DNA from: Hyalella azteca
Lineage: Eukaryota; Arthropoda; Malacostraca; Amphipoda; Hyalellidae
Direction of reading: 5' to 3'
Assembly (NCBI RefSeq): GCF_000764305.2
Contig: NW_025937447.1
Coordinates: forward strand, 1-64,000
Length of the DNA stretch: 64,000 bases
Position numbers and translations under genes: made by a program. The number at the start of each line of letters is the position of its first letter. Position 1 is the first letter of the stretch. Shown piece after piece: positions 17,209-55,355 of this stretch. The notes under the pieces were generated by a model. The model saw only the letters and a list, made by a program, of their open reading frames with translations. It made no database searches and had not been told where the DNA came from.

Positions 17209-17424
17209 GCTCATCCCCTTGTTGTACGTTAATGTTCGTGAATGTTCTCGAATAATTTTGTTCATCAAAAGTTATATTTATCTATAATGTTCAAATAAGT
17301 CTACGCAAAAAATAAANGCTCATCCCTTAGTTGTACGTTAATGTTCGTGAATGTTCTCGAATAATTTTGTTCATCAAAAGTTATATTTATCTATAATGTT
17401 CAAATAAGTCTACGCAAAAAAAAA
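17209..17424. repeat. False tandem duplication at a contig join
   Basis: About 107 bases at 17209-17316 are repeated almost exactly at 17318-17424, separated by a single N at 17317. Two overlapping contig ends placed side by side without merging would look like this, so the duplication is probably an assembly artefact. Confidence 0.8.
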
Positions 17425-20400
17425 TAAATTTTCGTAACTTAATCTTTTATGTTTTGCTATCGAAGCTTCTGAAAATATTCCTTTTAAAATTTAAATGATG
17501 GTAAAACTTTCATTTGGTTGCGATCGTTTTATCGTTAGTACCTGGTTCGTCCGTCAATAATCCGTTACAAAATAATGAAAATATGATCCAACTTTTTCGT
17601 GATAAACATTACTGAAGGATATTTACTGCAATTTCATGAAAATTAGTTATTACATAAATATGCAATAAAGGAGAAATTACTGAAGTACTAATTACTGTAA
17701 AATTACTGTTAAATTACTGTCAAATTCATCTAAAAATTCTAATAATTAATAATTATTGTTAAATTTATCTAAATTCTTATTAATTGTTGCTAATTTAAAA
17801 ATTCTGAGGTAAAATTATATTTGACTGTAAAAAAAGCATCTGTAATCGTAATGACCAGTGAGCGAATAAAAAATCGTGTTAACTATTTATATTGGGTTAA
17901 TTAGGATTCATGCTACCGGTACTAGAGGTAATTTTCAGTGAATGATTCGAATATTTTTTCATAATAAGCTATAAGAATTTTGGAAGTTGGGTGTTACGGG
18001 AATGAAAAGTGATCGGTATTTAAATCACATCTATACTTTTTTTAGAAATATGTAATGAACCAAATTTTATTTATTATTTTGACTTGAAAAAGTTAAATTG
18101 CATGAAAAAATGTGATGCGAAGAACAATTATTCTGGAAAATTCCCAGTACAGTTATTTCAAGTCTATGATTTACTACTTTCTTGTGAATATAAGTTAATT
18201 TAGTTGCGGAATTGAAGCATGGGAAAGTATATTAATTTTTATTACTTAAAATGAACCATTCCTCTAGTTGTGCAAACATTAAACAACGTGATTTGTGAGT
18301 TGTGACTTACTTAAGGGTAAACTGCGTGGAAACACTAAATAATTTATTCACACTTATCCGAATTTGTTGTCGATTCTCAGGAATATCAAGCATTGCACGA
18401 ATAATAAACTGAAATAACTGAAATAATTTAACTCAAATACGTGAGGAATCAGAAGGCACGAATACAAAGATTTTTTCATTATAGTTTCCTTCATATTTCC
18501 TGGTACTGACACGTGTGCCGGCACTGCCGCTGTTCATTTCCTCAAACAAACCAACGCGTCCGACCAGAAGCCGAAAAAACGACAAACCTCGAACTTCTTC
18601 AGTGGCGCTCTTTGGGATATGATTTAAGGACTTTCTTTAAAGGATTAGTTTGAGAAAAGTTAGGAGGTAGCAGGAGTTATCTATGGCTCAATTTTGAAAG
18701 CTCTCTCCCAAATGTCGTGGGAAAATCTTTTGTCGCTTTCATAAGGGCGAACTTTCGGTTAGCTTTCGCGGGACATTTCTGACCGCAGCATCAGTTAGAG
18801 TCCCATTTGTTTCTTCCGGACCAAGTCGGTTTTTGACTTTTGAAGTGCATTTATGGCATTTCAATGACAGTAAACTCGTAGGAATTCTTTAGTTCATAAA
18901 AAGCATTTAAAATATTTTTGAAATTTTATTAATACTAGATACCATACATTTGCACAGGTAATAAGTATTTAAATAAATAAATTTAAATATACACCAAATA
19001 CTTATATAACTGTTCACTAAAAAGTATTCAGTTAACAAAATTTCTGTAGCTAAATTCAAGTGCGATGACTTTTTCCTACCTAGATTTAATTAATAACACA
19101 ATTCAAACATAACAATTTGGAAAAATTATTTACGGGTAAGTCACTGAATAATTGAGCTGATACACTCACATATTGTCATTCAATTTCGATACATTTATTT
19201 TTAATTTAGTTAATTTTTTAATCTTCCTCCGAAGCACCTGACTTAGAATATTTCCGTGCAATTTCATAACTTTAAAAACGTTTACGAAACATTTGTATCA
19301 CATTTATGTTGATATTATTGTTATAATAGACACCTCGAGAAGCATCGTATTTTTAGTCGCCCAGCAATCCCACCAGCGAAATATTCTTGCACATCTTCTT
19401 ATATTCTTATAAGGAGCTCCCAGAGCCCTACTCTTGCCCTAGACTTAGTGGAATTTCTGGCTTATTACACAAAGTTAGGGGAAAGTTGGTGCGAGGCGTC
19501 GCACCTCGTGTCAAATGAAACTAATTTTTCCCTGAGTTTTGGGGTAACTGAAAAGAAGAGGTGTCTCGATGCACTCTCCTCAACGACGATTCGACCACAG
19601 CTGGGTCTCGGCGAACAAGTTTTCGACTTTATTTTTAATAAATTCTTATGATATATTTTATCCTAGCTCCTCTTCACTGGAGTCATGATTTTGTTTAGTT
19701 TTAACAGAATAATGAACTCTATTCCTCAGCTGAAACACACGTTGGGGATTTTCTATGGCAAAAATAGTTGAAATTTTAGGATGAAATAATCTAGGGATGT
19801 GATGCGTCTATGGTCTCGAGTTTAGAAGTCCCTGGGTTGCAATGTCGACCATAATTTCCATGTTTCCTTTCAAATTCCAGCGTTAGAAAATGTATACAAA
19901 AAATCCTAGCAGTTGAATTACACGTTGGAACTTGGAGAAATTTACAGAATAAATATTTCTAATTTCAATGAATGAATGAATGCGGACCGTTTCTTCTGCG
20001 AACCTAATGCATTACTTCATATTTTTTAAATTATGCCATAGTTTGATTTTTACACAAAAAAATTCTGATAAGATGACTAAACAGATCGCATAACTCAATG
20101 AAATTATTTATTGCTGCATTCGTTGGTCACAATCGAGTTGCTTAGTTATTTCTTATGTCTGAAATTCATCTCATGGCAGTTGCTGCGACCGATGCATTCT
20201 ACTTGTGCTCGAATAATTGTAATGAATAATTAATCAAATGATTCCAATCACTCGCAACGTACGCAAATCTATATGAAACTTCAACCATAGTTTGCAATAA
20301 AAATTACACAACATTATTACACATTTGGAACCAATGTCGTCAATAACATTTAAGTTATCACATTGCGATGGCCCTGATAATCCCACTCGAGGCTTAGATG

Positions 20401-20440
20401 AAGCTCTAAGTCGAACTATGACGGCTTTTGCTATTTGTAT
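17425..20440. other. Intergenic DNA, no gene seen
   Basis: No supported gene. A 67-codon frame at 19448-19651 is slightly GC-richer than its surroundings but shows no family I recognise. Confidence 0.5.
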
Positions 20441-20865
20441 GAAGCACGGCTGTTATTAGCAGGCAAAAAATATAACTCAGTACTCACTGCAGTGAGTGAC
20501 AGAGAGCGCATTTTCTCGACGACGAGAACATGAAGTCACGGACGGACAGACGGACGGACAGACGGACATGGCGAGCACAATAGTGCATTTTTTCATGAAT
20601 GAGAAAATGCGCTAAAAGCAGCATTTATTACAGGTAGGTCCAGAAGTAGTGTTGTTTGCGGATTTAAATAGCAGCTGTTATTAAAGGCACATGCCTTTTA
20701 TTAGCAGACACAAATAGCTGCTGTTATTAGAGTTATTTCCTCGCAACTGTTACTAGCAGACGTACGTAGCTGCTGTTATTAGCAGAAATGCTTATTAGAT
20801 GCAGGGCCTCATGACTTTAATGAGCAGACATACATAGAAGCTGTTGTTAATTAGAGGCACTGTAA
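20441..20865. repeat. Degenerate tandem repeat, interrupted
   Basis: The phrase AGCTGCTGTTATTAGCAGAC recurs in degenerate form about five times with a spacing of roughly 55-65 bases (near 20450, 20670, 20710, 20765 and 20830). The first unit is separated from the rest by insertion of the dispersed short element at 20466-20618. Confidence 0.65.
20466..20618 (+). repeat. Dispersed short element, copy 3
   Basis: Same family as at 2360 and 15661: AAATATAACTCAG, 16-bp palindrome, AGCGCATTTTCTC, short GGAC run, ATGGCGAGCACAATAGTGCA, GAGAAAATGCGCTAAAAG. It sits inside a unit of the surrounding tandem repeat. AGCAG occurs at both flanks and may be a target duplication. Confidence 0.8.
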
Positions 20866-21239
20866 TAAGACTTGTAAGAGAATGCCAATAATTAGTCTTA
20901 TATTCGAAGCAATAACTTCAAAATGTTCGACCTATAAATTTAATCTGACAACTGCCCTCATATGAACATAACAGCGATCTCTTCCATTATCTATTTCCAG
21001 TTTTGGCATTTATCTGCAGGCTTTTAGGGTAAAATTATTTTAACAGAGAAATTTTCATACATGTTAATTTTTAAACGAATTTTTGTGATAGACGCTGCAC
21101 GGACAAAAGCTGTGCTGCAGTCAGTTGTCTGGGCCACAAAGACTCGATCATATTAGCGGGCGTCTGATGAAGCGAACCTAATGCAATGTAATGACAGTAA
21201 AAAAACTTTTGCAATGTAATGACAGTAAAAAAAATCTTT

Positions 21240-21340
21240 CGTCTTTACAAAAGCTGCAGGATTAGAACTCACGGACCTCCATTCCAAGTCATTTGGATTA
21301 CAAGCTTAGACTCTCGCACTCTATCGCTCGAAGATTGAAA
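21240..21340 (-). repeat. tRNA-like sequence, probably SINE head or relic
   Basis: Read on the minus strand, the segment resembles a tRNA. GATAGAGTGCGAGAGTC is D-arm/A-box-like, CTTGTAATCC resembles an anticodon region (possible TGT), and GTGAGTTCTAATCC is close to a T-arm/B box. About ten extra bases follow the anticodon stem, and I cannot pair the acceptor stem well. A tRNA-derived SINE or tRNA relic is more likely than a working tRNA. Confidence 0.4.
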
Positions 21341-21941
21341 ATTACTTTGCCCTCAAAATAAACTTATACGATTTTTGAAAGTCGGATTTTGCTCAAATTA
21401 TGCTGAAGCTGGTCCAATTATGGTTGAAGATCATTTTTAACGTCGTCAATTAGAAGTAAAACGGTATCCCAAGACTTGAAGATTCTTTTGACACAGAATT
21501 TGTTTCTTCAGCCAAAAATTTAAAATTATATAATTTCTGTAACGTCTTTTGGATATATAAGGTTGTGTTTGAACAACGATGAATCAATGCCTTTAATGCA
21601 GTCGAAATTAAATACCTCTGATAGGATTGGCAATCAATTAAAAACATATGCCAAAAGATGGCTCCTGCAGTACTAAGGTATTACAGAATTACGAGCTCTC
21701 AAATCCCGCGGCTTACGTAGTAAATCGATGTACAGAAAAAAGAAAGCTTCTTCAAATAAACATTCAACATAATTCTGAATAAATTCATTACACTCAGCTT
21801 GCATATTCAAGACACAATACCTACATAAGATGTGAAGAGATCTTGAGATAAGATTGTTTATTCACATTTTTAAAGTTTACAGCAAACGAAATGATACAAA
21901 GGAAAATATAATAGAAAATCCATAAATTTAAAAAACTATCT

Positions 21942-22385
21942 ATGGAAATTCTTCTCTATTTCCTCCTGCGCTATCATATAATGTCTGCGACCAGCGATGA
22001 TCATCAATATTTTAATCAAAAGCGATTGGGTCGCTTGCGCAGCCTTCTCAAAATTTCAAAATTAACGCTATTTTTAGGCGCCAAGCCTTTCAGAAATAAT
22101 GTGCGTGAAATATTCATTTGTGAAAGCTGTTCTCAGAAACTAAAAAGGTATTCAGTATACGTGCATAACGCTGAATTAATTTCTAGGCTAAATGTTTTCT
22201 CAAAAGACATTCGAGTTTATTCCAAGACGTTACAAGCTTCAAAATTTTCAACCACGATTATTTTTTGGAAGGTTTACGAAGGGCGTTCACCACTGCGTGG
22301 CAAATTGACAAGTGAAGCTAAATCACTGAAAAGTCCGTTGATATCATGTGGGAAGACAAGATACAATCTTAGGCTGAATCTGTGA
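21942..22385 (+). CDS. Unrecognised 147-codon open frame upstream of the Kelch frame
   Basis: This frame is open in the standard code for 147 codons in AT-rich DNA, unlikely by chance but not decisive. A second ATG with the start MSATSDDHQYF lies 16 codons in. The product is basic and rich in K, R, S and L, with no signal peptide, membrane segment or domain I recognise. It ends in TGA, 262 bases before the Kelch frame begins. If TAA/TAG are read as sense, it extends upstream to an ATG at 21891. It could be part of the same foreign insert, a host relic, or chance. Confidence 0.25.
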   Translation: MEILLYFLLRYHIMSATSDDHQYFNQKRLGRLRSLLKISKLTLFLGAKPFRNNVREIFICESCSQKLKRYSVYVHNAELISRLNVFSKDIRVYSKTLQASKFSTTIIFWKVYEGRSPLRGKLTSEAKSLKSPLISCGKTRYNLRLNL

Positions 22386-22647
22386 CTATTTATTATTAAA
22401 AAATGTGTTAAACTTCTTCGAGAATTGTATTCATGATACAAGCTATGCAGGTAATGCGCGAGAGTTGATAAATTCTTTCAGCGTTTCAAAAAAGGAAATC
22501 AGTTCTTCAGGAGGATTTTTACTTCCATCCCGGACGACATCCCCTGTTGGCGATTAAAAGCTTTTAGCTTTCCATTTTATTAAGCAAAATTTAATATTCG
22601 CTCTCAAAGAACTTCGCAATTGCAAACAAGCAACAAAGTCAATAGTA

Positions 22648-24570
22648 ATGGAATCCGTGGGCGAGGCTCCTTCAACGGGGAACCTGTTCCTGCAGATGAG
22701 GACCTCTACGGTAACTGCGGCCTTCAAGCATTTCCTGAAATGTCCTGCAGTCGACCAGTCAGAAAAAGATAAGCTTTTCAACCGAGAAAACATTACGTCA
22801 GCTGAAGAAAATATGTAAAATCGGCCCAAGGTTCATTCAAAATCATTAGCAAATGATTGGAAATTATAGATCCCGCCTAGGAACGATCATCCGACGACTA
22901 ACATTCTTTAGATATCGACAGAGGATGAAGCAGAACAAGAATCTTTTGGGACGTTGGCGAAGTGGAAGAACCGGGAGAAAATTTTGTAGAAAATTAACGA
23001 AATTCACTAGTCCTACCAAACACAAGTCTTAGATAGCATTCTGGCTTGTGTGCGAACTGATAGCTTCGATTACCCGGAGGATAAAGAATACTTCGATGAA
23101 TACGTAATGAACTAAATTGTTGCGCATCAAAATTATGGGCTCCATCTCATTATCTACGAGCTACTTCTTGCTTGGGGACTTTGGAAACAGGAATCAGAGG
23201 AAGAAATTGATGGAAACCTGGAAAATATTGAAAACTACGCTGCGGAACTGCTCCAAGAAAAGATAGCGGAGGCTTAAATAGAAAACGACTCAATATTGGC
23301 AATAAGGAACGCTCTAAGAAGGCAGTCTGCGATCGAAACAGATGTCACTCGGTCCCTGGCCATTACGAAGCTCCAGCGTTCACTGCACTCCAAGTTCACG
23401 TCAAAGTCTCAAGAAAACAGGACGAAGCTGAGACCCGATTTCATGTTGTAAGTCGGAGGAGTCAACCTGAATCTCATGAACGAAAACTTTCATAGCTTAG
23501 GTCGCACCATCCAAGTAATAGATATTAGAGCCAAAAAAAGTGAGAGGCTAACATGGGAAGCAATGCTACCCCAATCAACAATATTTTTGGGACTCGCTGT
23601 TTTCGGAAATAAAGTATATATGAGCGGAGGACGAAAGGCGTTTGGAGGCTCGCTTCTTGGCGAAGAAAGTCCTAATGTCAGCAAGGATTTATATCTCTTG
23701 AACGTTAAAACCCAGACCCTAACTGAACTGAACAACATGTCTCAAGCGAGAAGTTATCATGGCTTTGTCAAGCATATGGGAGAACTGTGGGCAGTGGGTG
23801 GCTCTGATGGATAAAGTCCCATCGATACAGTAGAAAGTTTTGATCCACTTGAATAAACTTGGACGAGACGACCTAGTCTGACGACTTCGAGGTCTTGTGC
23901 AATGACTGTGGTTTACCAAAACGAAATTTGGACAATTGGAGGGAAAGACAGGATGGGTGTATTGCTGAGAAGCGTGGAAAGCTACGGGAAAGCAGGAGAA
24001 TGGAGATAACGGCCCAGTCTACCATAGGAAGTGATGCTCGGTGCTGCGGTCGTTGTAGATGACGAAATATATGTCATCGGTGGAATTACTGGCAATAAAA
24101 AAAATTATCAAGCTCTTGACACAATATACTAGTACAATAACGAGCAAAATTCCTGGAAACTGTGGACTAACATGAATCAACCAAGGCTGAACCATGCAGC
24201 AGTGAACTATGGTTCGTACATCATTGTCGTTGGTGGTCACAATTTGATAAAGCATGTCCCGTTGCAAGTACCAGAAGCCATCGGCTTCAATATCAAAGAA
24301 CCTTCAAAGGAGATATAACTTCCCTCACTAGGTAGCAGCAAAATTGGTTTAGGTGTTGTCCTCGTCAGTGATATGTAAAAGATCCTGGAAATTTACGGGC
24401 CGACGTTGAAAAGCCGCAGTACAGATGTCTACGATTCACCTGGAAAAAGTACTGAGCGAAACGACATTGCCACATTTCCCTCCGTTCCTTATAAGAAGTA
24501 GGTTTCTTCTTCTCAACCCCACAGCAAAGTCTCGTCTAGATGGAGTTCCGCAAAATCCTCCAAGAAATGA
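22648..24570 (+). pseudogene. Kelch-repeat protein in a TAA/TAG-sense code
   Basis: One frame runs from ATG 22648 to TGA 24568-24570 (640 codons) without a frameshift. It contains nine TAA (22816, 23113, 23275, 23449, 23812, 23854, 24007, 24316, 24376) and seven TAG (22867, 22909, 22987, 23008, 24025, 24130, 24499), and no TGA. Read with TAA/TAG as Gln, the C-terminal half is a six-blade Kelch propeller: double-glycine strands at about residues 270, 327, 384, 431, 478 and 529 (VGGVN, SGGRK, VGGSDG, IGGKD, IGGIT, VGGHN) with downstream W/Y positions. The N-terminal 260 residues are charged and helical-looking; I see no BTB domain. About 21 CAA/CAG, 12 TGG and 5 CGA codons are intact, which argues against random C-to-T decay. 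In the host's standard code this cannot make a protein. Donor-type codes exist in many ciliates. The start is inferred; the frame is TGA-free from 22378. Confidence 0.8.
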
Positions 24571-25201
24571 AATCGTTATTAATATCCACTGGAAATCATT
24601 ATTAACATTCATTGGAGAGTATCCTTTGCAAACGCAGGGGTAACTTAAAAATCAGGTTTTAGTGACCACGACCTGTAGATCTTCATGTATTAGTTACGCT
24701 ACATAACGTCTTCGATAGCTTCGATAAAAATGGAATATTGAGCACGATTAACCTTGTGCATTGCCTTTATGCGCAGTTATAATTTGTCATAAGAATTTTG
24801 ATAGAGTGGTTTTCTATATGTGCTGATATGCAAGATAATTAGCGTGCCCTCTGCGTCACTGAACTTGCATCCTTGTGAAAGTTTTTTTTTTTAAGACCAA
24901 GCCGCTTAAAATTACGTAGTGGAGCCTGCCAGCTGCACATGCAGGCAATAAATAATCAAAATGAAGATTTTCGTCATAAACTTGTGCACAATATAATCAC
25001 AATCAGTTTAAATATCATTTTCAATAGAAGAAATTAACGTTTTTTGAAAACTGGAAACCGTATTTTCACCTAAATTTATGTTGTTAATTTCCTGAAAAAG
25101 GTAAAACAACTTCTTCTGATTTGTAATACTTACGCTTAGTTGGCATTCGATCAACTGAAACTTATAAATTTTTAGAGAACATTTGGAAAAATTCATTTAA
25201 C
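24571..25201. other. Intergenic DNA between the Kelch frame and the duplicated block
   Basis: AT-rich sequence with no supported gene and no obvious terminal repeats that would mark the edge of an inserted segment. Confidence 0.5.
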
Positions 25202-26701
25202 CAGTAAAAAGTATTTAAATCATTAGAAGGGATGACAAATAAACGTTGGACAGTATAGAGTGTTTTCTCACCTTAGAAAATGTAAATGGACAGCTTTTTG
25301 AAGTAAACTCAGTAGTTTTATCTTAAACAGTTCCTCCGGTAGTAATATTTGGTAACTTTTATTTCTGGTAACATCAAAATGACTAACATTATTAAACGAA
25401 ATTGAATTAAACTTTTTGCGGTTTTTCCCTCTGCAATAAAGAATTGCCAAAATCGAAATGAACGTGTCAGGCGACAATGGAAGCCATTCAATTTTATTAT
25501 TATTTTGTATATTTTCTATTTCTTGCTCTCAACCCGGCCTCTTTTTCTCGATTACCATCAAATGTCAAATTATGGAAGCCATTCAATATAACAAGGTTAT
25601 TCCACCAGAACAACCCGGCCATTCGTCCTAGGCTGTTTAATGATCGACTAAGCACGAGTTATTCTTGCCAGAGTAATTCTGTCAGTAGCTGGTATGGGCT
25701 TGATCAAATTATGATCATATTATCGCTCGAAGTTATTATAATTAATCAAATTAAGGCATTCGTTGGCCTAATTTAAAATTCGCGTAGATGCTTTGCTATC
25801 CAAAACCAAGTTGAGGTTGCCAAAGGGTTTCTATGCTAGACAAGCACAGTTTTGAGAAAAAAATATTTTATTTTGTCATTCTTCAGTCAAAGTTTCTGTT
25901 TCGGTGCACGACCTCCATTAACAAACGCTTTTTGGACGCTCTAAAATAAATTCAGTATAAGCTCAATACCATGTAGCCACTTTTTTCGATTGCAAAAGTC
26001 GGCTGTATGTAATTGGGATGAACTTTGTCAGAAGTTTTGGCGATCTAAAGTAACTTGTATATTCTAAATTTACTGAAAATTAACGCTATTAAAATGAGTC
26101 TTACGAGTCCTGAGGCATCACACTTTTATTCGCATTTCAAAGTTTCTTCTAAATAATACCTGACGCTGAACAATTTTTTCACAAATTTCCGCAACAGGCA
26201 CTATGAATTGTTTAAAAACGATGTACAAATAATAGGAGTTAATACACTTCAATAATAATAATAATAACAATAATGAAAAGGATTCAATCAAAAATAAATA
26301 ATTAAAAGCACGAAGCACAATATATATCTTTGTCTATGGATGAAATCTTCCTGGGTTTTTTAGACTGGTTGAATCATGGTTGAATTATTAATTCAACCAT
26401 GGGTTGAATAGCGTCATTAAGCTTCAGTTAGGGATTTTTTAACTGTGATTGAATAATAATAATACAAAATATCAATCGAATTAAATAAAGCAAAAGAATT
26501 AAAATGAGTTCTTTGATCAAACAGATAAAATTTTCGCTAGGTCCAACAACAAAATATAACATTATTATAACCAGATGCGTGAGTTCTCAGCAATATATTG
26601 TTTGAGCCGAGCTTGTTTCTTCGAGATACAAGACAATTGCAGCAACAACAGCTTGATTTGCTTGCGCTGTGTCCTGCTGTTGGACTTGCAGCCGCCATGT
26701 T
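25202..26701. repeat. Segmental duplication, block 1 of copy 1
   Basis: This block matches 32749-34243 at very high identity, with a few substitutions and small indels. Both copies contain the same 99-codon + frame (25477-25776; 33024-33323) and the same 69-codon minus frame. The short spacing and AT-rich content give no protein family, so I do not call these genes. It is the upstream flank of a duplicated calaxin 5' end, or an unmerged second haplotype. Confidence 0.9.
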
Positions 26702-28455
26702 AGCAGTGGTGAGTAATATTAGCTTAATATTTTACGTTCTTTGTTCTGTAAATAATTACTTTACGAGCAAGTATTACTGAGGAAATCTTTCATGTATATC
26801 TTACGATAATGGTAAGTAAAATCATATTTTAAAGACAAAATTCGACCTAATTTCCAAAATTTGAAAAAAAAGTTTGTTATTCGTGCAGAAGTTATTTCTT
26901 ACCATAGTTTGTGCTGTGGGATATGTTACTTAAATATTGGTTGTAGACTCCGAAGACTTTTTCGATAATATAGATGACTGAGTAAGTTAACATTTTTCAA
27001 ATGCTTTGCCAAACTTATTTTATTTAATAATTCCATAATATGAATGTTCATTCTAACTTTATTTAAGGACTATCAATTTTCATAGTCCTTTATTTATTCA
27101 GTGCATTTAGGTTAAAAAATTTATAGAGTCCAAATTTAACATTGTTCCCAATGAAGGCGTTGAAATCGCGCTATTGATGATCCTAAATATCCTGTATAAC
27201 GTAGCAGAATTTGAAATAATCCCGTGAAATAAGCCCATTTTAAGAATATATAGCATTCAAATATATTTTTATTATCTTCAATAATATATTATCCGTCTAT
27301 ATACAGACGAATAAATCTGACAATATTCGCAAAAATCTTTCAACGTAATTGTTTGAAGTAAAACACAGATCATAATAATAATCATAATCATATACAGATT
27401 CAGCTTCATAATCATATTACAGATTTTCCCCTAATTTACGGAACCGGAATATTCCAACTGCTGGGATTTATGTTTCAAATGCATGAATCAGACGGGCCGC
27501 AACTTTCAGGTTGCCATGGATACGGAGTCCCGGTCATGCAGTCAACATAAACTCGTGCTTTACATTTCTCGAACGAAAATTTCAGGCGCATGTTCGTATC
27601 AGTTTCTTTGAACTTCTGCAGTTTATTTTCGTAGCCAAGTGTTTATCTGGAATATAAATGTGTTATTTTTCGATTTCAGGTACAAATTATTTCCAGTCAT
27701 GTTCTAGTTAGAAATAGTCTAAATTTTCATCAGTTCGGGGAACCATATTCATTTTCGCGGAAAAAATGTTGACCTTCGAGTTATATTTAACTTATAATAA
27801 CGCTAATTATGAAGAAATTATAATAGGTATTGGTGAACTCATTTAAACAACAGTCTCGTCGCGAGTCTCTAATCTCGTGAATCTTTAAATCTTATTCCTG
27901 CATTCTTAAAGTTTGTGTATAAATATTTGTAAAGAGACAAGAATTTCAAAATAGCATTTAAAAATCTGAATGAAATCATTTACTGATAACATTCAGCCCT
28001 CAACTTTGACTCTTGTAAACTAAGAACATTTACGATATTTTACTTTAAAAGCGTTTTCGTTGCCGATTAAAGAAATCTCATAAGTATGGTGTTTGATACA
28101 TTTTTAATAGCAACACCTTCACTTTAAATACATAATGTATCGTGCAAAATTCAAATGTTACCTCAGATATTCTTCAATATTATTTATGCTGCATGAGGAA
28201 TTTAACCGTTGAATGCTATTATTTTTTCAACAGAGACGAAAATTTTTCTTCACGTACTTATAGTCCAGAACGATCGTGCGCTCAAAACGAAACATCAAAA
28301 ACTCCTTAGTAAAGCTTTTGCAATCTTCGATGCCAGGCGCTCCCAAGCCGAAAAAATGCATATGCAGTGCCAGTAAACTTTCTCCCACTCTTCGGTTAGT
28401 AGTCAGCTCTGGTGAAAGTTAAGGAATGTTTAACTTTCTTGAGGGGCCGCCACTT
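26702..28455. other. Unique spacer within duplication copy 1
   Basis: About 1.75 kb lies between the two duplicated blocks, with no counterpart in copy 2, where a 60-bp tandem array and a single-N join occupy the same place. No gene is seen. A 12-bp perfect hairpin (CATGGTTGAATT, 3-base loop) lies just upstream, in block 1 at 26375-26401. Confidence 0.5.
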
Positions 28456-28513
28456 GGTATCTAATGCATGTGAAGCCTCGACTGAATATTCAAAGAAACA
28501 AGTCAGATTCAAG

Positions 28514-29251
28514 ATGGCCGCTACGTACAAGGGTTACTCGAAGCTCGCCGAAAAACTTGCGCGAGTGACTCACTGTAAGTCATTAAACAAATTATTAATA
28601 TCAATATAATAGGATCAAATAATATAATTTACACTGAATCATTCTTTCAGTTACAATTTGACTTTAATCCTGTCAAATTAAAATTAATTTATTAGACTTC
28701 TAATTAATCTTTAATTAATTAGAGCTATTAATTTATTTCCTTCTGATATTTTCTTATTTGAATATAGTTAGAAAGTATATTTGTTTTTTTTCAGCCATGA
28801 AGCTTTGACATTTATTGAATCTAAATCCTTTTTCTCAGTCATCGCCTACAAAACAGTTGACAAAATAACAAACTAAAGTTGAAATTGCTCTGCAAAAACG
28901 GTATAGTCATTTGAGCATTTTTTATTTCATTCACTAAATATTCAATTGCTGTGAATTATATATTCAATTAATATTATATATTCAATAATAAATATTCAGT
29001 TATATGTGAATTAACTGTATCTGGGTCGACGGTAATTGCAAAAAGTTATTTTTTGAACTCCCATGTCAAAATTTTCATTATATTTCATAGACCGATTATT
29101 AAGCAGATACAAATTTATTAATAAATACCCTAGCCATAATCATTTATTATGTTTTTAAAGTAATATTATAATCTGCCAGTTACATGCGAGGAGACAGACT
29201 GTCTGCTCAACATGTACGACAACGTTGCGGGTGGTTGCCGGCTTGTTTATC
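28514..29251 (+). pseudogene. Partial duplicate of calaxin exons 1 and 2
   Basis: Exon 1 (28514-28574) has ATG in a good context (AAGATGG), 20 codons reading MAATYKGYSKLAEKLARVTH and a GTAAGT donor, identical in protein to the main gene's exon 1. Exon 2 starts at 29180 after CTGCCAG and reads TCEETDCLLNMYDNVAGGCR. Homology to the main copy then stops near 29251, inside exon 2, and the sequence runs into unrelated DNA ending GTGTAG/GTACGA. No exon 3 or later exon follows in the next 3 kb. It is therefore a truncated copy, unless it is a misplaced alternative haplotype. Divergence from the main copy is higher here than in the upstream block. Confidence 0.8.
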
Positions 29252-31483
29252 AGAGTGTAGGTACGATGTAACTTGAAAATCCTTAATACAATTTTATTAT
29301 CGTCGAAATTCGTCAGAAAAAAAATGGAAGAAGAGTTTTTAGTGAAACACAGACGAGTTATTTGTTGGAGACGCTGCAGTCGGTCTCACGAATTCAGACC
29401 TTTGGATACTTTAAATAATTTGTATGTTTTATGAATAGGAATGAAGCTGGCTTGCAAATTAGAATTCATATTTTTTAGTTCGGAACGTTGATTGCACAGA
29501 AGCCCGCATTATTATCATGACATAAACTAATTGGGCATTCAAGCCACGTTTGCATTGCAATTAACGTTTAGTTAATTTATGACTGGCAATTAGAATGGTC
29601 GGTTTCACCATAATAATTTCAGAATTTTAACAAAGGAAGCCAATTAATGATTTTCTGCCTCTTTTAAATTTTCCAGCTTTGTATATTTTTCCCTCTATGA
29701 TGTATCAGTATGACAAATCATTCATTTGATTTTGAAACCTTTTTTTCACTTTTCCATAAATGGAGAAGAATCTATATTATATAGTCTAAACGTTAAACTA
29801 GCGGACACTCTTCTGGATTGTACAACAATTTTTATAAAGACTCACAATTCTTGGAAAAATCTTTCTGCAAATAAAACCGGCTTCTTTTTTCGTAATGATC
29901 TTGATGGAAAGTGAGGAAGAAACTTTCGTATAATCATTGGCTCTGTTGAATTTTGATAATTTTCGAAAAAGACTGAAAAAATAATCAAATAAAATATTTC
30001 CATGCTCTCCTGTGAACCGTGTGAAATCCTAATATTACATGTGAAAATTCTCTTAAATTGATTTTGACGTAATTTTTCTATATTTTTAATAGAATTTTCA
30101 CATCAGGGATATTCTTCTTCATAATTTGCCCTTATTTACGTCGTGTGTATAATCGCTGTAATTCAGCAGTGGCCTCGATCGACTGGCATATCGAACAGGC
30201 TTGTAAAGGTTGAACATAACGAAGCGAGGCACAAATGTCAGGCATATACCACGACATTTACACAACACACCTCCAGCAAGATGAATGATGAAGAACGCCA
30301 GGTATATTGGTATCATAATCTACTATGTTGTTCATAAATCTTCAATAAAACGAATTGTGTTCGACAATTCGATGAATTTTCTTAAACTCATACGTTTTGT
30401 AGACGAAACAATTGTTTTTTAGATCAATATTGTGAAATACTTGACCGATCGGCGATCACAAGTTCTTAATCGTTAATATTAAACAACGTTTGAAATTAAA
30501 CAATGTATTTTTATTAGTGAAAAATTACAAGCATGACAGTCTCCAGGTAATAATTTAAAAAATATTTACAATCATTTTATCGCAAAAACGTAAAGAAACT
30601 TTCGAAATTTATAGTTAGACGTTTATTTGTACTCAAAACCGGGTTTTTTTGTTCCAAGGAAGTTAAGATCACGTTATTTCAATGCTACTAAATCAACATC
30701 AAAATTTTTTTACCAGTAAATCTAAATCAAATCATTTCGTTTTCACAAGTTATTGAATATTTTTGTGTCCATGAAACCTCATAAATGAAAATAAGGTTTA
30801 CATCTGCTTTCATATTGAGAAATATTAAATATATAAATTCGTTTAAAGACTAATTTACACCTCAAATATCAGTTATTCACAAAAAAATATATCACGATTT
30901 TCGAGAACAGTCTCTGGCACAGCGAACATATCAGCAATGACCGCATTGCATGCCCAGGCTCATCTGAAGCACTTATGACATTCCGGCGCTCGGAAATTAC
31001 TTGATGTTCTCTTGCCTATCCTGCACTATACTTCAGTAGAGCAGAAGGATTGAGTTGCACGCGTTATGCTTTGCAATAAATGCAGCTGTATCAAGCAAAG
31101 GAAAAGGCAATATATTTGAAACTTGGAGGTGGCGAAAAATTTTATAGTTGCCTAGCTTAGTGACTGCTCTAGGTTTCTCACGTAAATTTGTTACCATCTA
31201 AGATAATTTAATTTAAAGAGGAAAATCGGACGTAAATGAATTCAAATTATGTTATAACTGGGAGTTAAAAAAATCCTCGCAGTCCTGTAAAGTCTTGCTA
31301 GTCCGGGAGTAAGTGCAATGCTACTTTTCAACGATGTTGCTAATATTATGTATCGCCTAATCCATAACCTGCGTGTCCACGAGTACTTTAGGATTCGTAT
31401 ATTCATGAAATATTCATATTTCGTAACCAAACTTATTGATGAAAACATTTCACTCATAGAAAGTGAAATTTACATATCGTAAT

Positions 31484-31580
31484 AGAATAGAATAGAAGTG
31501 TCGGCACTGAAGAAATAGGCCCATGGCCTGTTGCCGATTCTTGAACTTTTCGTGACTTGATTCACAAGGGATCCGTCGAG
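31484..31580. repeat. Dispersed repeat, inverse copy at 57511-57606
   Basis: About 95 bases, from TAGAATAGAATAGAAGTGTC to the ACAAGGGATCCG segment, match the reverse complement of 57511-57606 closely. The end carries an (AGAAT)n simple run, like the 3' tail of a non-LTR retrotransposon or SINE. No reverse transcriptase is seen nearby. Confidence 0.7.
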
Positions 31581-47860: not shown

Positions 47861-50800
47861 AATCTTACAATGGCATTGAGTGGACCCACAACTGATAGCC
47901 AGCTGAATGAGTTCATTGAAGGACAGACTCAGAGACAGAAGTATCAGGCAAGTTTCCAGTGAAAAACAATTAAATTAAATAGCAGTATTTACTGATGTGT
48001 CCAATGATATGTATTTGCAATTAAATAACAGCATTTACTGTAATTATAAAATAAATTCAATTTATGAATTTTTCTTATGGAACTATCATCAAGATATTCT
48101 TGCATGTATATAAGATATATAACTATAACTATATAACAAGATATAACTCTACGCATGTAGAATAACCAGGATTATAATATATATAAAAAGATAAGCATTC
48201 CATTAGAACAATGATGAAGGTGCTAATTTACTGAGAAAAGGAAGCTTTGTAATTATATTTAGTTTTCATACTTTTCAAAATTTTTGTTATTTTATAATAT
48301 GAAACAAATAACCTCAATTATCAGAACTTCAATTATCAGATACCGTAAAATGGGGTAACTTTGACCACTTCTTTTTCAAAATGATGCCATTTTTTAACTA
48401 GATAAATTAAACTTAAATTGAAACATGGAAAATACAGGTCTATACTCTAGCTTCACTCACCATAAATTGCTGGCTCCTGCCTCTCATAGTTTTGATGTAA
48501 TTTCAAAAAAAGTGATGGTCTTTGTTACCCCAGCTCTTGGGGTTACTTAGACCGGGTGGTAAAATCAATTATATTTTTTGGTAAAATAACTCCAAATAAC
48601 TCCAGGTTTTGGTGCATTGTAGTAGAACTCTTCTAGTTACATATGCAAATGACAAACTTGAGGAAAGTGTCATAGTTTGCAAATGGGGGGCGCCGCCCCA
48701 TAATGAGGGAAATGTGACTACCTAATGGCAGCCCTGATGGGGTAATATTGACTGGCTTGGAAATTAAGTTAAAATTACCATATATAAGACTCTGTAGAGT
48801 CTGAAACATAAAGAAAAAACATAAATAGGCTGTCAAACATAAAATATGTTATATATGGTAATTTTATATTAACTTCCAAGCCGGTCTATGTTACCCCGTC
48901 AGGGCTGACATTAGGTGGTCTAAGTTACCCCATTTGGGGGCGGCGCCCCCCATTTGCAAACTATGACACTTTCCTAAAATTTGTCATTTGCATATGTAAC
49001 TAGAAGAGTTCTACTACAATGCATCAAAACCTGGAGTTATTTAACCAAAAAATAAAAAAATTGGAGGGGGTACTCTGACAGGCTTTAAATAATAGCTTTT
49101 TTTCGTGGGTCACATTTTTAATTTTTTAACCTATTAGATATGCAAACTTTTTAAATCTTTCTATTGTGTTACGTAGCCTCAGTATTAGGCCTTTGATGGC
49201 CATTGACAAAATTTTTCTATGTCAAATAGTTTTTGAGTTTGGGGGGTTTTTGTTAAAAAAACGAAAAGTGGTCAAAGTTACCCTGGGAGTCAAAGTAACC
49301 CCATTTTACGGTACCGGTATATGTCTATATTAATGAATATTTGTTATAAATATCAATGGCTAAAAGGCCATAGTGGAAGACTTACTGAGTGTGAGAGATG
49401 TCCTAACTGTCAATCATCCAAACAATTTATGTTAATAGTATATACCCTTTAATAATTACCCATGTTAACCTGATAATTTTTTTAACATTTGCTCCTAGAG
49501 TGAATCTGCAATTAATTTAGTGTAGTGTATGGCTTAGTTTTATTTATTTAGTGTAGTGTAATTTTAGTGTATTAATTATTAATAATTAAGTAATTAGTGT
49601 AATTTTAGTGTATTAATTATTAGTATGGTAATTAAGTAATTAGTGTAATTTTAGTGTATTAATTTTAATTATTAGTAGTTAAGTAAGTAGCGTAGGTAAT
49701 TTTAGTGTATTTATTTAGTGTACGTAGTGTAGGGCTTGTATATATACTTGTGTTTATGTTGCTTTATTGTTTTTAGATGTTCTGGTTCATATATATAGCT
49801 CTGTATTTTTCAAGATTATAAGGTAGTTGTGGTCTTTTTGCTGTCAAATTTATTTATTTATAAATTTATTTCAAATTTATCTTGACTGGAATGAAGATTG
49901 ATAATTTTGTAAGCTAATAAGGAATTGTTAGTGTTAATATCATTTAATTATTTATAATTTTTATTCTGAACCAAGCATAGCATTTCCACATTGAAATCTT
50001 TCAAAAAAATGCATTTTAAAAATCACTGATGCATGAAAATATCATAATTAATTTTTCCCACACAATCATGACCAACAATAAATTATTGCTGTCTTCATGC
50101 TAAGTCTTTTTTATTTTCTCCATTCCAATGATCTAATACTGTTGAGTGATTTGAAATAGATTTTTGTTTTCCCACTGGTTACTTCATTTAAAAAAAAATA
50201 GTTTTAAGAATTTGTGATAATAACCCATAACAAGGTTTACTTAATTATTCATCAAAGGCAGACTGTTGAGCTAATGCCATATTTCTACACTTATTAGGAC
50301 AACTAAGTCTTCGTTTGGCAATTTTGATCCATTAGACTATTAGGTATCACTTTATAATAACATTTGATTTATTATTTCCCATAAAAACTTTCCTTTCTGC
50401 CCAGCAGCTGTGACAGACAACAGTTGTAGCAAGAGCAGCAGCAGCAGCAGTGGTGGTGGTGGTGGTGATTTTCACCTCATTCAAAGTTTGGTCTTTTTCT
50501 AGAGGTTACATCTTAATCTCAAACTGTATCTCAGAAGTTTTGATTTATTGTTACATACTACAATGGGGGACAAGCGAAAACCTACCAGTCCAGTTGAAAA
50601 AGAAGATTTAAAAAAGAACAGAGTTGATGACGAAAGTGTATCAATTTCTACTCTTGGCTCACTTGCTGAAAAACATGTAGTTCCTAATACTTGTGTATCT
50701 GATAAACCGGATGTGATTTCTACACAAGTACCAGAAAGATTTGATGCCAACAATCTTCAGACTAAAAATAAAATATTAGTTGAATGCATTCGTCCAATTC

Positions 50801-53782
50801 AAGAAAATATTCTTATAGCAAATGTTTGTGACCCAATCGAGAAGAATTTATGTAATACTTCAAGGAGAACAGAGGATAACAAAACTGATGAATATGGAGA
50901 GACAAGAAACAAAGAAGATGAAGCAGAGCAGAGCAAAGAAGAGTCTCTAGTTGAGGAAAAATCAAGCAAAGTAGTCAATTTAGAAGAAAATATATTAGAA
51001 ATTGCCCCTGAACATGACGAGACATTAAAGAGACCAAGATCACCTTCACCGCCTTATAATCAACCTCAAAACGATGCTAAGGCTGGCACTATTCCTCCAC
51101 ATGAAGGATCAAGTAAAAAATTCAAACATAATGAAGAAACGTCCATTGATGAGCTAAGAACTGTTGTTGGAAATGAAGCCAGTACTGTGTGTCCTGAAAA
51201 AACTGAAGCTCAAAATGTTTTGCCAATAACCAAACCAACTATAATTTTGACAGAGAACAATGAGAAAACCGCAACTGATTCTTCTGTGACGGCAAAAAGG
51301 CCTGGTGAATTGGGGCTTGCTCCTGAAGATGACGTAAGCCAGCACAAGACTTCCAGAAACTTGAGTGATTCAGCAGACCATTCAGGGTCTCCAGATAATT
51401 CTGATAAGAAGCTTGATGTTATTGAATTTTGTTGCTTAAACTCAGGTGATCAAGCCTTGGAGCTTAATGACAGTGACCAGATATCAGAAAAGTCATCAGT
51501 AAAAGAATCTCCTGTTAATATTTTAGATTTAAATGATAGTTCTAACTGTCCAAGAGACAATGCAGCAAGCTGGGAAGAGAGTAGATGCTTGATGGTTGAT
51601 GATGTGTTTGTTAGAGCTTCTCCAAATGAAGCAGCACTGCAGCCATTCCAGCCACGTAGAAAACGACAAAAACACATAATTAATGCCCTCCAAAAGATAA
51701 TGGAATTTTATTTCAGTCGTGCCAATTTGTCTCAAGATCGATTCTTGCGGTCTAAGATGTCAGACGATTTTTATGTTGACCTGCCTCTTTTCCTCACTTT
51801 TAATAAAGTTAAAAGCTTGACACAGGAGTTGAAATTACTGCAGTATGCTGTAAGGAATTCGCCATTTTTGGGGTTATCTCCAGATGGCCTGCGTGTTAAG
51901 AGAACTCTCTATTACCCCAAGAAAGAAAATGAGTTGGACTGCATTGTCTATGTAGATCATCTTGCACGCAATACAACTGTAGATTGGATCTGGGAATATT
52001 TTGAGCAATTTGGAGTTGTTGAGTTCGTGAGTCTTCCTCGGTACAAAGACAGTCACAGATGCCGAGGATTTGCATTTATTGAATTTGATACACCCGAATC
52101 TGCTGTGAATGCAGTGGAGGCCCACAGCCCTACTGGGAATCCTGACATATCAGCTTGCACCAACTATTCAAATCTTGATTCTTTGGAGCGATCTTTTAAT
52201 GAAGAAGTCCACAATGTGCCTGATAGCAGTTGCCATGTTGATAATGAAAATTCGCCACTTGGCGATAGATTGCACTTACCTCAGGACTCAAATTCCGTTA
52301 GCAATGTCACTACCACCACCGCTGATGCTTCTGCTGTTGTGGCTTCAGAAGCCGAGTGCACTGACGAGTCGCAAAAAGCATCTCCAAAAAACTTGGACCA
52401 TGGAATACCCCGAAATGAAGATCTTGATGTTGCTACGCCTGCTGAGAGACATCAGCTGCAGAGAAGAAATAGCAAGACTAGCCGCCCTCTTGAAAAGAGG
52501 AAACGATCCCTCCTCAAGAGAAAGACCACTGATGCCGACCACACAGATCATCTGCTAGTCTTGCCTAAACGTGTTTGGTTACAACGCCGTGAAGCTTATC
52601 TTGCTGAACAAAAGAAGCGTCTTAGTATGTGCAAAAAGATAATGAAAGCTGATCGTTTACAGCAAGAAGCCCTGAAGATAGACTTTGATGTGCCAAAGCC
52701 TCGCAAACAAATGCCTGTGAAAAATCCAGGGTGTGTTGTGAGAGTCACCCTAGATCAGCCAATTGAAGAAAAGTCTTCCATAATCTCTGGGGTCAAGGCT
52801 TTTTGCGGTTCTGGCGTGGAGTTTGTGGACTGCTCTGTTGGAGAAAAAGTTTTTCACGTTAGATTCGGTTCGCGCGAGGGCGCTCATAGCTTCAGGTATG
52901 GCAGTTCTTGGAAGAACAAAAGTACAATTATTGAAGGAGCTGAAGAGGATGTATTCTGGCAACGAGTCCAGAGCTGTTGGATCGCCAGGATTACGGGACC
53001 CAGAATACGAAAAAAAGTTCGTGGAAAGCAGAAAGTGATCAGCAGATGGCGTGCACGGCAAGAGGCTTTGGAAGGAATCGGCGGAGAAGACGGCTTGCCT
53101 GATCACAATAATGATCAAGAATGATATCTAGGTCCTTGATGATTGCCGCCCCATTAATGATGAGGTATGGAAGTGTAAAAAGAAGAAATTATGAATTGAT
53201 TTGCAAATAACTTTGCTGAAATGTTGAACTGTAATGTAAAATAATGAATCTGAATCGCCATATGGGAAAAAATATTTATCTATTGATTTCAGATTCTCAG
53301 AGACGAGCCAAGAGCTCAATTATACTTTGATTCAGTTAGGATTGTTGAAGTATTCTATGTGTGAATTAAGAGGAAAATCACCACCACCACTGCTGCTTCT
53401 CTGCCGCTGATGTTCAGTAGCGGCCAAGACCAACTTGATACTAAAACTGAAACTCCCTCCAATAATTCCCATCAAGTTTACCATTTCAATTATTGCTCAC
53501 AGAATTTTTTTGTGAATGTTAAGTCGTCATTTATCGTTCGTTTTAACACTTTAATGAAACGTCTTTGTAATCTCACAGGCGCTGGTTCACGAACTCAACA
53601 ACCGCTGCTGGAAGGTGTGTTCAGGGACGGGAAAGCTATCAACGAAGCTAGACTCGCGTCTTGAGACCTGCCTCAGCAACTGTGTTGACCGCTTTATCGA
53701 CACCTCCAACTTTATGGCTAACAGAATAACTTCACTTGCTGCTCAGTCCGCCTCCTCTGACGGCCAGAGCTCATGGGATTAG
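47861..53782 (+). CDS. TIMM8: Tim8 mitochondrial intermembrane-space chaperone, two coding exons
   Basis: Small Tim proteins escort hydrophobic precursors across the mitochondrial intermembrane space; Tim8 pairs with Tim13 in a hexamer. Coding exon 1 is 47870-47947 (exon starts at 47861 after TTTCAG): 26 codons, MALSGPTTDSQLNEFIEG followed by QTQRQKYQ. Coding exon 2 is 53579-53782 after TCTCACAG: ALVHELNNRCWKVC and ETCLSNCVDRFIDTS, ending TAG. The twin CX3C motifs (CWKVC and CLSNC) and DSQL...FIE/VDRFIDTS are Tim8-type. Total length is 93 residues, normal for the family. The intron is 5.6 kb, begins CAG/GCAAGT (a GC-AG intron) and contains the whole LARP7 reading frame on the same strand. The acceptor upstream of the ATG implies a further 5' noncoding exon. 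Confidence 0.95.
48341..49313. mobile_element. Palindromic foldback element with TACCGTAAAATGGGG ends
   Basis: It begins TACCGTAAAATGGGGTAACT and ends with the inverse, ...CCCCATTTTACGGTA. It lies in the TIMM8 intron. Internally it is a large palindrome: about 48598-48790 is the reverse complement of about 48845-49040, centred near 48815. The phrase GGGGTAAC...GACC or its inverse recurs at least eight times across this element and the one at 46788. There is no transposase frame. TA at both ends would fit a TA-targeting MITE. Confidence 0.8.
49500..49740. repeat. AT-rich degenerate tandem repeat
   Basis: TTTTAGTGTATTAATTATTA-type phrases repeat several times with variable spacing inside the TIMM8 intron. 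It is simple-sequence-like. Confidence 0.7.
50434..50477. repeat. AGC/GGT repeat, 5' arm of an inverted pair around LARP7
   Basis: A (AGC)n(GGT)n run followed by GATTTTCACCTC lies 85 bases upstream of the LARP7 ATG. Its reverse complement, with a few changes, lies at 53369-53404, 245 bases beyond the LARP7 stop. The two could pair over about 30 bases and loop out the whole gene. Confidence 0.75.
50563..53124 (+). CDS. LARP7: La-related protein 7, intronless
   Basis: LARP7 binds the 3' end of 7SK RNA (controlling P-TEFb) and guides U6 snRNA modification in the nucleus. The frame is 853 codons with ATG at 50563 (ATGGGG) and TGA at 53122-53124. Domains in order: an acidic, S/E/K-rich N-terminal region (1-360) with few aromatic residues; a La motif at about 364-445 (RRKRQKHIINALQKIMEFYF, then LSQDRFL); RRM1 at about 457-525 (RNP2-like CIVYVDHL, RNP1 RGFAFIEF); a basic linker; and a C-terminal xRRM at about 722-830 (GCVVRVTLDQ, FWQRVQSCW). 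Order and content are diagnostic. Vertebrate LARP7 is near 580 residues with the La motif almost at the N-terminus, so the 360-residue leader is unusual. LARP7 genes are normally multi-exon. This copy is intronless, lies inside the TIMM8 intron and may be a retained retrocopy. An acceptor-like TTTCTGCCCAG ends at 50403. Confidence 0.96.
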   Translation: MGDKRKPTSPVEKEDLKKNRVDDESVSISTLGSLAEKHVVPNTCVSDKPDVISTQVPERFDANNLQTKNKILVECIRPIQENILIANVCDPIEKNLCNTSRRTEDNKTDEYGETRNKEDEAEQSKEESLVEEKSSKVVNLEENILEIAPEHDETLKRPRSPSPPYNQPQNDAKAGTIPPHEGSSKKFKHNEETSIDELRTVVGNEASTVCPEKTEAQNVLPITKPTIILTENNEKTATDSSVTAKRPGELGLAPEDDVSQHKTSRNLSDSADHSGSPDNSDKKLDVIEFCCLNSGDQALELNDSDQISEKSSVKESPVNILDLNDSSNCPRDNAASWEESRCLMVDDVFVRASPNEAALQPFQPRRKRQKHIINALQKIMEFYFSRANLSQDRFLRSKMSDDFYVDLPLFLTFNKVKSLTQELKLLQYAVRNSPFLGLSPDGLRVKRTLYYPKKENELDCIVYVDHLARNTTVDWIWEYFEQFGVVEFVSLPRYKDSHRCRGFAFIEFDTPESAVNAVEAHSPTGNPDISACTNYSNLDSLERSFNEEVHNVPDSSCHVDNENSPLGDRLHLPQDSNSVSNVTTTTADASAVVASEAECTDESQKASPKNLDHGIPRNEDLDVATPAERHQLQRRNSKTSRPLEKRKRSLLKRKTTDADHTDHLLVLPKRVWLQRREAYLAEQKKRLSMCKKIMKADRLQQEALKIDFDVPKPRKQMPVKNPGCVVRVTLDQPIEEKSSIISGVKAFCGSGVEFVDCSVGEKVFHVRFGSREGAHSFRYGSSWKNKSTIIEGAEEDVFWQRVQSCWIARITGPRIRKKVRGKQKVISRWRARQEALEGIGGEDGLPDHNNDQE
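53369..53404. repeat. 3' arm of the inverted pair around LARP7
   Basis: GAGGAAAATCACCACCACCA followed by CTGCTGCTTC is the reverse complement of the AGC/GGT repeat at 50434-50477, with small differences. It lies in the TIMM8 intron just upstream of TIMM8 exon 2. Confidence 0.75.
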
Positions 53783-54068: not shown

Positions 54069-55355
54069 ATGTTTTCATCACTACGCGGTTTTTTGTACCG
54101 CCACCGGCGAAAGTTCATGTGGGCCGGCGTGACAGTTGGAGGTGCCATATTGGCCAGCAAGTTGGCCGAGTGGAGGCTTCGTCAATGGCAGGAAGACGAG
54201 ACACGTAAGCTTGTCGAACAAAAGCGTCGCAAGCAGCACTACGAGCGCACACTGGATACCACGCGCTTGTCTTTCTACCAATTGCTTCCCAACATAAGAA
54301 AAGTTCTTGACTTGGAGCTAGACTCGGATGTGTTCATTCGCGCCATCAAGAGCAATCCAGAGAGAAAGCGCGAGTATTGGGAACAGCTCAAGCTTGTGGG
54401 ATTTGGTCGGGTTCTCTGCACTGTTGTGTGCTCGGCAATCACTGCCGCCGTGTCCCATGTCCTCTTGACCGTGCTAGCTGCCACCACAATCGATGACGAC
54501 ACTCCTGAAGAAGTCCAGACAAGGTTCCTCGCCACCTTACAAGGGCTTGTTGAGGAAAAGCTTCCAGGCCTTGTTGAGAAAATTATGGCCGTAGCTTCCA
54601 AGACAATCTCACCCTTACCCCTTACGCGGAAACTTACCTTAACGCAGCTTGAAGTCGTCCTGCAAGAGATCTCATTGGCCGTCACTAATGACAGGGAAGC
54701 TAGTGAAGAGAAATCTGATGGAAAAATACCCTTATCCATATTGCCATGGAGTCGATATCTTCCAGAGCCTGACCCTATTCATCATAATCCCGATTACCAA
54801 GAACAGCTCAGGAAAATGTACCTGACAACCGTTGATATCCTGAACACGGATGACTTCAATGACGTCGTCAATGCACTGTCCCAAGTAGGCGTCAGTTTCT
54901 TTCTTGATGAAATCGCGGCTTTTTATTTCTCATCGTGTTTTACTGATTCTGAACAACACAAGCCCGCGGTAGCAATTGTTAATCAGAGCGACGAAGAGGC
55001 TCTGTCTCCAAAAAAGTCCAAAGATGAATTATCGAACTCGCATGAAAAACCGAAGGAAGATTCGTTGACACTCTCAAGCGAACCTGGTGCTTGCTCTCTC
55101 AGTAGCTCCAGTCCAAACCCTGATTTTGTTCGTAATAGAGAAGTGTATACCGACGTACCCAGCTGTGTTGTTGCAAAGCTTGTGCCTGTACTGAGTGGGT
55201 TACTCCATGTTGCTCTTCCCAACCCTCCAGCCAACGGCATATCAGCTGACGTCTGCACCCTTTACCACCGACTCGTCGCATGCAGCCAATTAGAAGCTCT
55301 TGCTTTTAGCGTCTATGATGCGCTCGTGCTCACGGCTGCGCGTCCTGCCACTTGA
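54069..55355 (+). CDS. PEX3: Peroxin-3, intronless coding region
   Basis: PEX3 is the peroxisomal membrane docking factor for PEX19 and is needed to insert peroxisomal membrane proteins. The first ATG in frame (54069) gives 428 residues, ending TGA. The N-terminus MFSSLRGFLYRHRRKF, then WAGVTVGGAILAS, matches the family's basic targeting motif followed by the single membrane segment (about 17-33). REYWEQLK places Trp at residue 104, the position of the PEX19-contact Trp104 in human PEX3. SGLLHVALPN near the C-terminus also fits. Human PEX3 is 373 residues. The extra length is mostly a Ser/Glu/Lys-rich loop at about 305-355. The gene lies 287 bp after TIMM8 on the same strand. AATAAA at 55838 is a likely poly(A) signal. 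Confidence 0.96.
   Translation: MFSSLRGFLYRHRRKFMWAGVTVGGAILASKLAEWRLRQWQEDETRKLVEQKRRKQHYERTLDTTRLSFYQLLPNIRKVLDLELDSDVFIRAIKSNPERKREYWEQLKLVGFGRVLCTVVCSAITAAVSHVLLTVLAATTIDDDTPEEVQTRFLATLQGLVEEKLPGLVEKIMAVASKTISPLPLTRKLTLTQLEVVLQEISLAVTNDREASEEKSDGKIPLSILPWSRYLPEPDPIHHNPDYQEQLRKMYLTTVDILNTDDFNDVVNALSQVGVSFFLDEIAAFYFSSCFTDSEQHKPAVAIVNQSDEEALSPKKSKDELSNSHEKPKEDSLTLSSEPGACSLSSSSPNPDFVRNREVYTDVPSCVVAKLVPVLSGLLHVALPNPPANGISADVCTLYHRLVACSQLEALAFSVYDALVLTAARPAT

Follow-up and report, generated by a model that had tools for sequence, protein, structure and literature searches.

The window, by which we mean the whole 64,000-nucleotide stretch analysed here, carries a Kelch-family gene that runs through many in-frame TAA and TAG codons and terminates at TGA (Table 1). 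Translated with NCBI table 6, positions 22648-24570 extend from ATG to TGA over 640 residues, with 16 in-frame TAA/TAG (nine TAA and seven TAG), no in-frame TGA and no frameshift, which reproduces the frame count of 640 sense codons given in a preliminary description of this DNA. A recount of other codons likewise agreed with that description (21 CAA and CAG combined, 12 TGG and five CGA) and upholds its argument that the gene does not show C-to-T decay. In 200 dinucleotide-Markov sequences of 64 kb, each scored for its longest TGA-free frame, the mean was 399 codons and the maximum 578, compared to 730 for the frame that encloses the gene, and a chance origin of this frame was therefore rejected. 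The window also contains a longer TGA-free frame, of 918 codons at 50368-53124, which includes the standard-code La/RRM open frame. Neither Rfam nor ARAGORN detected an RNA gene in the 64-kb window.

Table 1. Features of the window that bear on the Kelch-family gene and its genomic setting.
Feature	Position	Strand	Basis or remark
SINE-like host repeat	20466..20617	.	recurs on four of five further contigs, absent from the 10 kb of C2320
TGA-to-TGA open frame	22378..24570	+	730 codons, 17 TAA/TAG
CATGATAC motif	22432..22439	+	upstream of the ATG of the window copy
Kelch-family gene	22648..24570	+	640 aa and TGA stop, TAA/TAG read as Gln; translation, Pfam, AlphaFold2 model
N-terminal region	22648..23439	+	helical in the AlphaFold2 model, at low confidence
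Kelch beta-propeller	23440..24366	+	residues about 265-573; Pfam, AlphaFold2 model, structure comparison
TGA stop codon	24568..24570	+	TGA also terminates the three other open copies
La/RRM protein open frame, host marker	50503..53124	+	standard code, TGA stop
PEX3 gene, host marker	54069..55355	+	standard code, TGA stop

Pfam identified Kelch repeats in the window protein (Kelch_1, E 8.7e-31). The AlphaFold2 model, obtained from a 13-sequence alignment with TAA/TAG read as Gln, shows a confident propeller at about residues 262-583 that resembles solved Kelch domains (KLHL17, target TM 0.91); prediction from the single sequence reached a mean pLDDT of only 33. With Kelch repeats that form a propeller in the model, the predicted protein is a member of the Kelch propeller class, and the propeller suggests protein binding as its role. 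The N-terminal region yielded no Pfam match above the cut-off, neither BTB nor BACK, and hhalign of this part against two KLHL proteins gave a probability of 0.1; on these grounds, descent of the N-terminal part from the KLHL (BTB-BACK-Kelch) architecture was rejected.

The host genes around the Kelch gene use the standard code, as the preliminary description had maintained. The La/RRM and PEX3 open frames contain no in-frame TAA or TAG and both end at TGA, and a host open frame at 60986-62056, which has no Pfam match, is terminated by TAA. The top hit of the PEX3 protein, out of 11, was Peroxin-3 from the amphipod Trinorchestia longiramus, with 65% identity, in agreement with the earlier assignment of the contig to an arthropod; the host is a talitroid-like amphipod. 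When KLHL20 was used as a query against the host genome, 48 of the 60 matches were free of internal stops, and the other 12 together held 12 TGA and eight TAA/TAG, so that ordinary host Kelch/BTB genes use the standard code as well. Together with La/RRM and PEX3, these KLHL20-like matches speak against a genome-wide use of TAA/TAG as Gln. One weak KLHL20-like match (C4834:100253-100552) contains one TAG, two TAA and no TGA, and may represent either intron sequence or another recoded gene. Elsewhere in the window, a 60-bp unit is repeated 11.3 times with 100% matches at 34220-34898, with several frames open and a single N adjoining its end, and an open frame at 62508-63107 encodes a chitin-binding Peritrophin-A (CBM_14) domain.

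The Kelch gene of the window has relatives elsewhere in the host assembly (519 Mb in 4890 contigs). The window protein matched nine places, namely the window itself (contig C1975), C3694 (55% identity), C188 (two pieces), C4532 (35%), C3672 (one piece), C2320 (two pieces) and C455, where the match is weak and was also hit by the KLHL20 query; the C4532 protein matched six places and newly added a piece on C722. The family is therefore carried by seven host contigs, with open copies on C1975, C3694, C188 and C4532 and decayed copies on C2320, C3672 and C722. The TGA-free frames of the other three open copies comprise 648 codons with 19 TAA/TAG (C3694), 617 with 26 (C188) and 650 with 16 (C4532). 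In the four genes pooled, there are 73 TAA/TAG and no TGA, as expected under the original reading of TAA/TAG as sense codons and TGA as stop, and the remaining five frames of each gene hold 4-24 TGA. In a neutral simulation of one lineage with 0.24 substitutions per site, the probability that no TGA would appear was 0.006-0.016.

The substitution patterns, estimated with TAA/TAG as Gln, indicate coding constraint and differ among the pairs of copies. Between C1975 and C3694, dN is 0.36 and dS is near saturation. For the Kelch part of C3694 and C188, dN is 0.16 and dS is 0.41, with dN/dS of 0.38, rising to 0.50 overall and to 0.66 in the N-terminal part. Of the five pairs that include C1975 or C4532, the four with an estimable dS have dN/dS between 0.12 and 0.33, with dS near saturation. 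Because the C188 copy lacks one conserved stretch and carries the largest number of TAA/TAG, it may be in the process of losing its function. The C2320 and C3672 copies contain frameshifts and inserts, with an in-frame TGA in C2320 as well, and the C722 piece contains one TGA. The 8-mer CATGATAC, with a chance expectation of 0.007 per 300 bp of single strand, is located upstream of the C3694 (position 780), C3672 and C4532 copies as well as the window copy.

Several lines of evidence place these genes in host DNA. The window copy lies within 17318-32747, a stretch free of N as originally stated, and the repeat at 20466 that had been called host-like indeed recurs: of the six copy-bearing contigs compared, five carry it. 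It is absent from the 10 kb of C2320, where other repeats are shared with the compared contigs, and on C3672 it interrupts the decayed Kelch copy. Furthermore, about 600 bp of downstream sequence is common to C188 and C3694, with pieces of the same flanks in C2320 and C3672, and the C722 and C4532 copies are alike (about 86% identity) over the 3' end of the gene and roughly 1.0 kb beyond it. A Sulfotransfer_2 gene is located 3.4 kb from the C4532 copy. Given that noncoding flanks are common to the copies and that a host repeat splits one decayed copy, the Kelch family is old in the host genome, and we conclude from these comparisons that it is a family that was duplicated and decayed within that genome. 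A lone recent insert was rejected in view of the open to decayed copies on seven host contigs, the common noncoding flanks and the host repeats. Accordingly, the preliminary interpretation holds with respect to sense TAA/TAG, TGA as stop, the arthropod contig and the lack of C-to-T decay in the window gene, and is not supported with respect to a single recent insertion from a ciliate or a chimeric contig; the genes may still derive ultimately from a protist. A minisatellite is found near the C4532, C722 and C2320 copies (2851-3225 of stretch L033; 21464-22309 of C4532), on differing sides of the gene.

As for the amino acid encoded by TAA and TAG, the BLOSUM sum over these sites was highest for Gln (53, followed by 38 for Glu), and the log-likelihood was also best for Gln (-519.9, with Lys next at -527.9). 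Among the 60 alignment columns with TAA/TAG, at least two copies have TAA/TAG in 16, and another copy has CAA/CAG in nine. The paralogue residues opposite TAA/TAG are widely scattered (Glu 21, Gln 19, Ser 18, Asn 14). Gln is the best fit, by a margin that is moderate because many of the sites are poorly conserved.

Relatives outside the host were few. A search with a 120-residue block recovered seven outside proteins, 68-177 aa long, whose sources carry the marks jgi, lgn (taken here as Logan) and ena; that these are fragments is partly built in, because the search is confined to proteins with a length 0.55- to 1.75-fold that of the query. The nearest is 87.6% identical to the C3694 copy and has Gln at both of the TAA/TAG sites that it covers, ending immediately before the next TAG of that copy; the fragments at or below 56% identity have Gln at one of eight covered sites. 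The full-length search of the protein database returned seven proteins, the best with 28% identity over 38% of the query, and among the 7994 candidates sharing most words that were scored there was no close full-length relative and no ciliate relative, contrary to what the preliminary description had anticipated. A viral or prokaryotic source was rejected, given that tblastn revealed no relative among 47 pattern matches in viral_contigs and 66 in genome_contigs.

In addition to the Kelch family, the genome contains candidate components for decoding it. A whole-genome search with a pattern for Gln-type tRNAs with anticodon TTA or CTA, allowing up to three mismatches, gave 17 matches, compared to four for the reversed control: one each with CTA, TTA and TCA on contig C4613, 11 ordinary CTG/TTG sites (ARAGORN called tRNA-Gln at all 10 that were fetched) and three others. 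A longer pattern with two anticodon bases left free, applied to the 519 Mb, matched without mismatches only at the three C4613 sites and with three mismatches at seven ordinary sites; its reversed control gave none. All three C4613 genes were folded by ARAGORN. They are 92-97% alike and, in a comparison set of seven host tRNA types with Glu left out, are closest to host tRNA-Gln (72-78%), with which the TTA and CTA genes agree at every base from 7 to 25. The stem pairs are intact (21/21), and the four that differ from host tRNA-Gln(CTG) are all compensatory, one of these changes also distinguishing the host TTG gene from the host CTG gene. The Rfam scores are 73.5 for TTA, 67.8 for CTA and 60.6 for TCA, with ordinary Gln tRNAs at 67.3-69.3, and a run of four to five T lies 3' of each C4613 gene. 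By these features, the genome holds predicted Gln-type tRNA genes with both anticodons, UUA and CUA, as in table 6. A single repeat in common with the window contig, in the 16 kb read, suggests that C4613 is host DNA. Predictions of suppressor tRNAs prove nothing by themselves, because the annotation of the sponge Oopsacas, in the portion of the source cited here, also lists one and makes no claim of recoding (PMC10280926).

The host further encodes two proteins related to eRF1, detected with human eRF1 as the query. The ordinary one lies on C1960 in nine pieces separated by introns (59-92% identity to human eRF1). The second is a single exon on C4694 with 38% identity to human eRF1 over residues 9-435 of 437, in a frame of 446 codons without TAA, TAG or TGA that ends at TGA and is followed by a further in-frame TGA three codons later. 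It retains GGQ, NIKS and YxCxxxF, the residues beside NIKS are changed, and ARSSNIKSDTNR occupies the place of human GTASNIKSRVNR. Among solved structures, it is most similar to eukaryotic eRF1 (E 4.7e-85), followed by the archaeal factor 4af1 (3e-33). With three eRF1 domains, GGQ and NIKS, the predicted C4694 protein is of the eRF1 class. Ciliate eRF1 of narrowed specificity is likewise known to have changes beside NIKS.

Taken together, these observations make it probable that the nuclear genome of this amphipod contains a small set of genes, the Kelch family, written in a second code with TAA/TAG as Gln and TGA as stop, and that these genes are decoded in the animal. A more specific proposal, to which we give slightly better than an even chance, is that two nuclear codes coexist in one animal, the standard code and a switchable code with UAA/UAG as Gln that is used by the Kelch family and relies on tRNAs and an eRF1 of its own, possibly in one tissue or stage. 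Under this model, the UUA and CUA Gln-type tRNAs would be made, charged with Gln and would read UAA and UAG of the Kelch mRNAs. The second eRF1 would ignore UAA/UAG and terminate at UGA, without competing for these codons, and together the tRNAs and this factor would allow the Kelch mRNAs to be read through to TGA. Because the gene for the second eRF1 is free of in-frame TAA/TAG, the factor could be made in any standard-code cell. Since ordinary genes have to keep TAA/TAG as stops, the decoding kit would presumably be confined to particular cells or times.

The same components could have been acquired together, the Kelch genes and the suppressor tRNAs, and possibly the second eRF1 as well, all coming from a protist with TAA/TAG as Gln and now functioning in the amphipod. 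The identity of the Kelch family code with the common ciliate code, the single exon of the second eRF1 gene and the lack of any closely related full-length protein among the 7994 database candidates scored, those with the most words in common, would suit such an origin. We nevertheless consider it unlikely, given that the TTA and CTA tRNA genes match host tRNA-Gln from base 7 to base 25, that the second eRF1 has only 38% identity to human eRF1 and no known donor, and that the Kelch copies, the tRNAs and the eRF1 reside on separate contigs. Somewhat less likely still is that the Kelch copies are dead protist DNA that the animal cannot read, derived from repeated transfers of one ciliate family, with the open copies recent and the decayed ones old. 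Decayed copies do exist, and a recoded protist is known from an arthropod dataset, namely the rhizarian exLh in Lygus, as far as the cited passages go (PMC5304391). However, this one family would have to have been transferred four times recently and about three times earlier, the common flanks point to duplication at the DNA level, no ciliate relative was found among the candidates sharing most words, and the suppressor tRNAs and second eRF1 would be left unexplained. Another host route of recoding, in which for example U-to-C RNA editing or modification of uridine in stop codons acts and the tRNAs play no part, is very improbable: U-to-C editing would indeed make Gln codons of TAA/TAG, yet it should also allow TGA to become Arg, against the absence of TGA in the four genes, and dedicated Gln-type tRNAs exist. 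Equally poor are the prospects of an assembly artefact or contaminant contigs, for which the gaps elsewhere in the window might be cited, in view of the N-free stretch around the window copy, the repeats common among the six copy-bearing contigs compared, one of which splits a decayed copy, and the Sulfotransfer_2 gene adjoining the C4532 copy.

To our knowledge, no change of the nuclear code is known in animals, and none appeared among the literature matches listed, in a search with most subscription papers and bioRxiv outside its scope. If two codes do coexist in this amphipod, the meaning of a codon would be specific to the gene and perhaps to the cell, the start of a code change could be observed while the old code is still running, and genes in the second code would escape standard gene finders.

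The closest precedent is the ciliate nuclear code (table 6), which relies on Gln tRNAs with anticodons UUA and CUA and on an altered eRF1. The codon meanings are identical, with TAA/TAG as Gln and UGA as stop, but in ciliates the code applies genome-wide, whereas here it was found in only one family and the ordinary genes examined follow the standard code. In Drosophila, stop-codon readthrough, of kelch among other genes, involves one leaky codon. The likeness extends to an animal gene, a Kelch protein and a stop read as sense, in contrast to the 16-26 TAA/TAG per TGA-free frame and the Gln-type tRNAs with stop anticodons observed here; with 16 TAA/TAG, the window gene does not correspond to a single leaky readthrough stop. 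Phages with code 15 employ a suppressor tRNA. In these phages, genes with recoded stops (TAG as Gln) are read in a standard-code host cell, according to the sections cited (PMC9523058), whereas in the present case the proposed second code is in an animal genome, affects TAA as well as TAG and is accompanied by a second release-factor gene. The exLh sequences from the Lygus hesperus dataset resemble our case in that recoded genes occur within an arthropod dataset, but in the cited part of that report they are transcripts of a separate, recoded rhizarian (PMC5304391), whereas the gene copies described here adjoin host genes and repeats.

The third tRNA gene of C4613 (82826-82896), with anticodon TCA, would read UGA. 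An active tRNA of this kind would decode TGA, the stop codon used by the Kelch family, which counts against the proposed second code. Its variable loop is shorter, its Rfam score is the lowest of the three, and the gene may be inactive; inactivity would fit with TGA remaining the stop of the family. The 8-mer CATGATAC also occurs near the anticodon-TTA tRNA gene, at about position 4440 of stretch L045.
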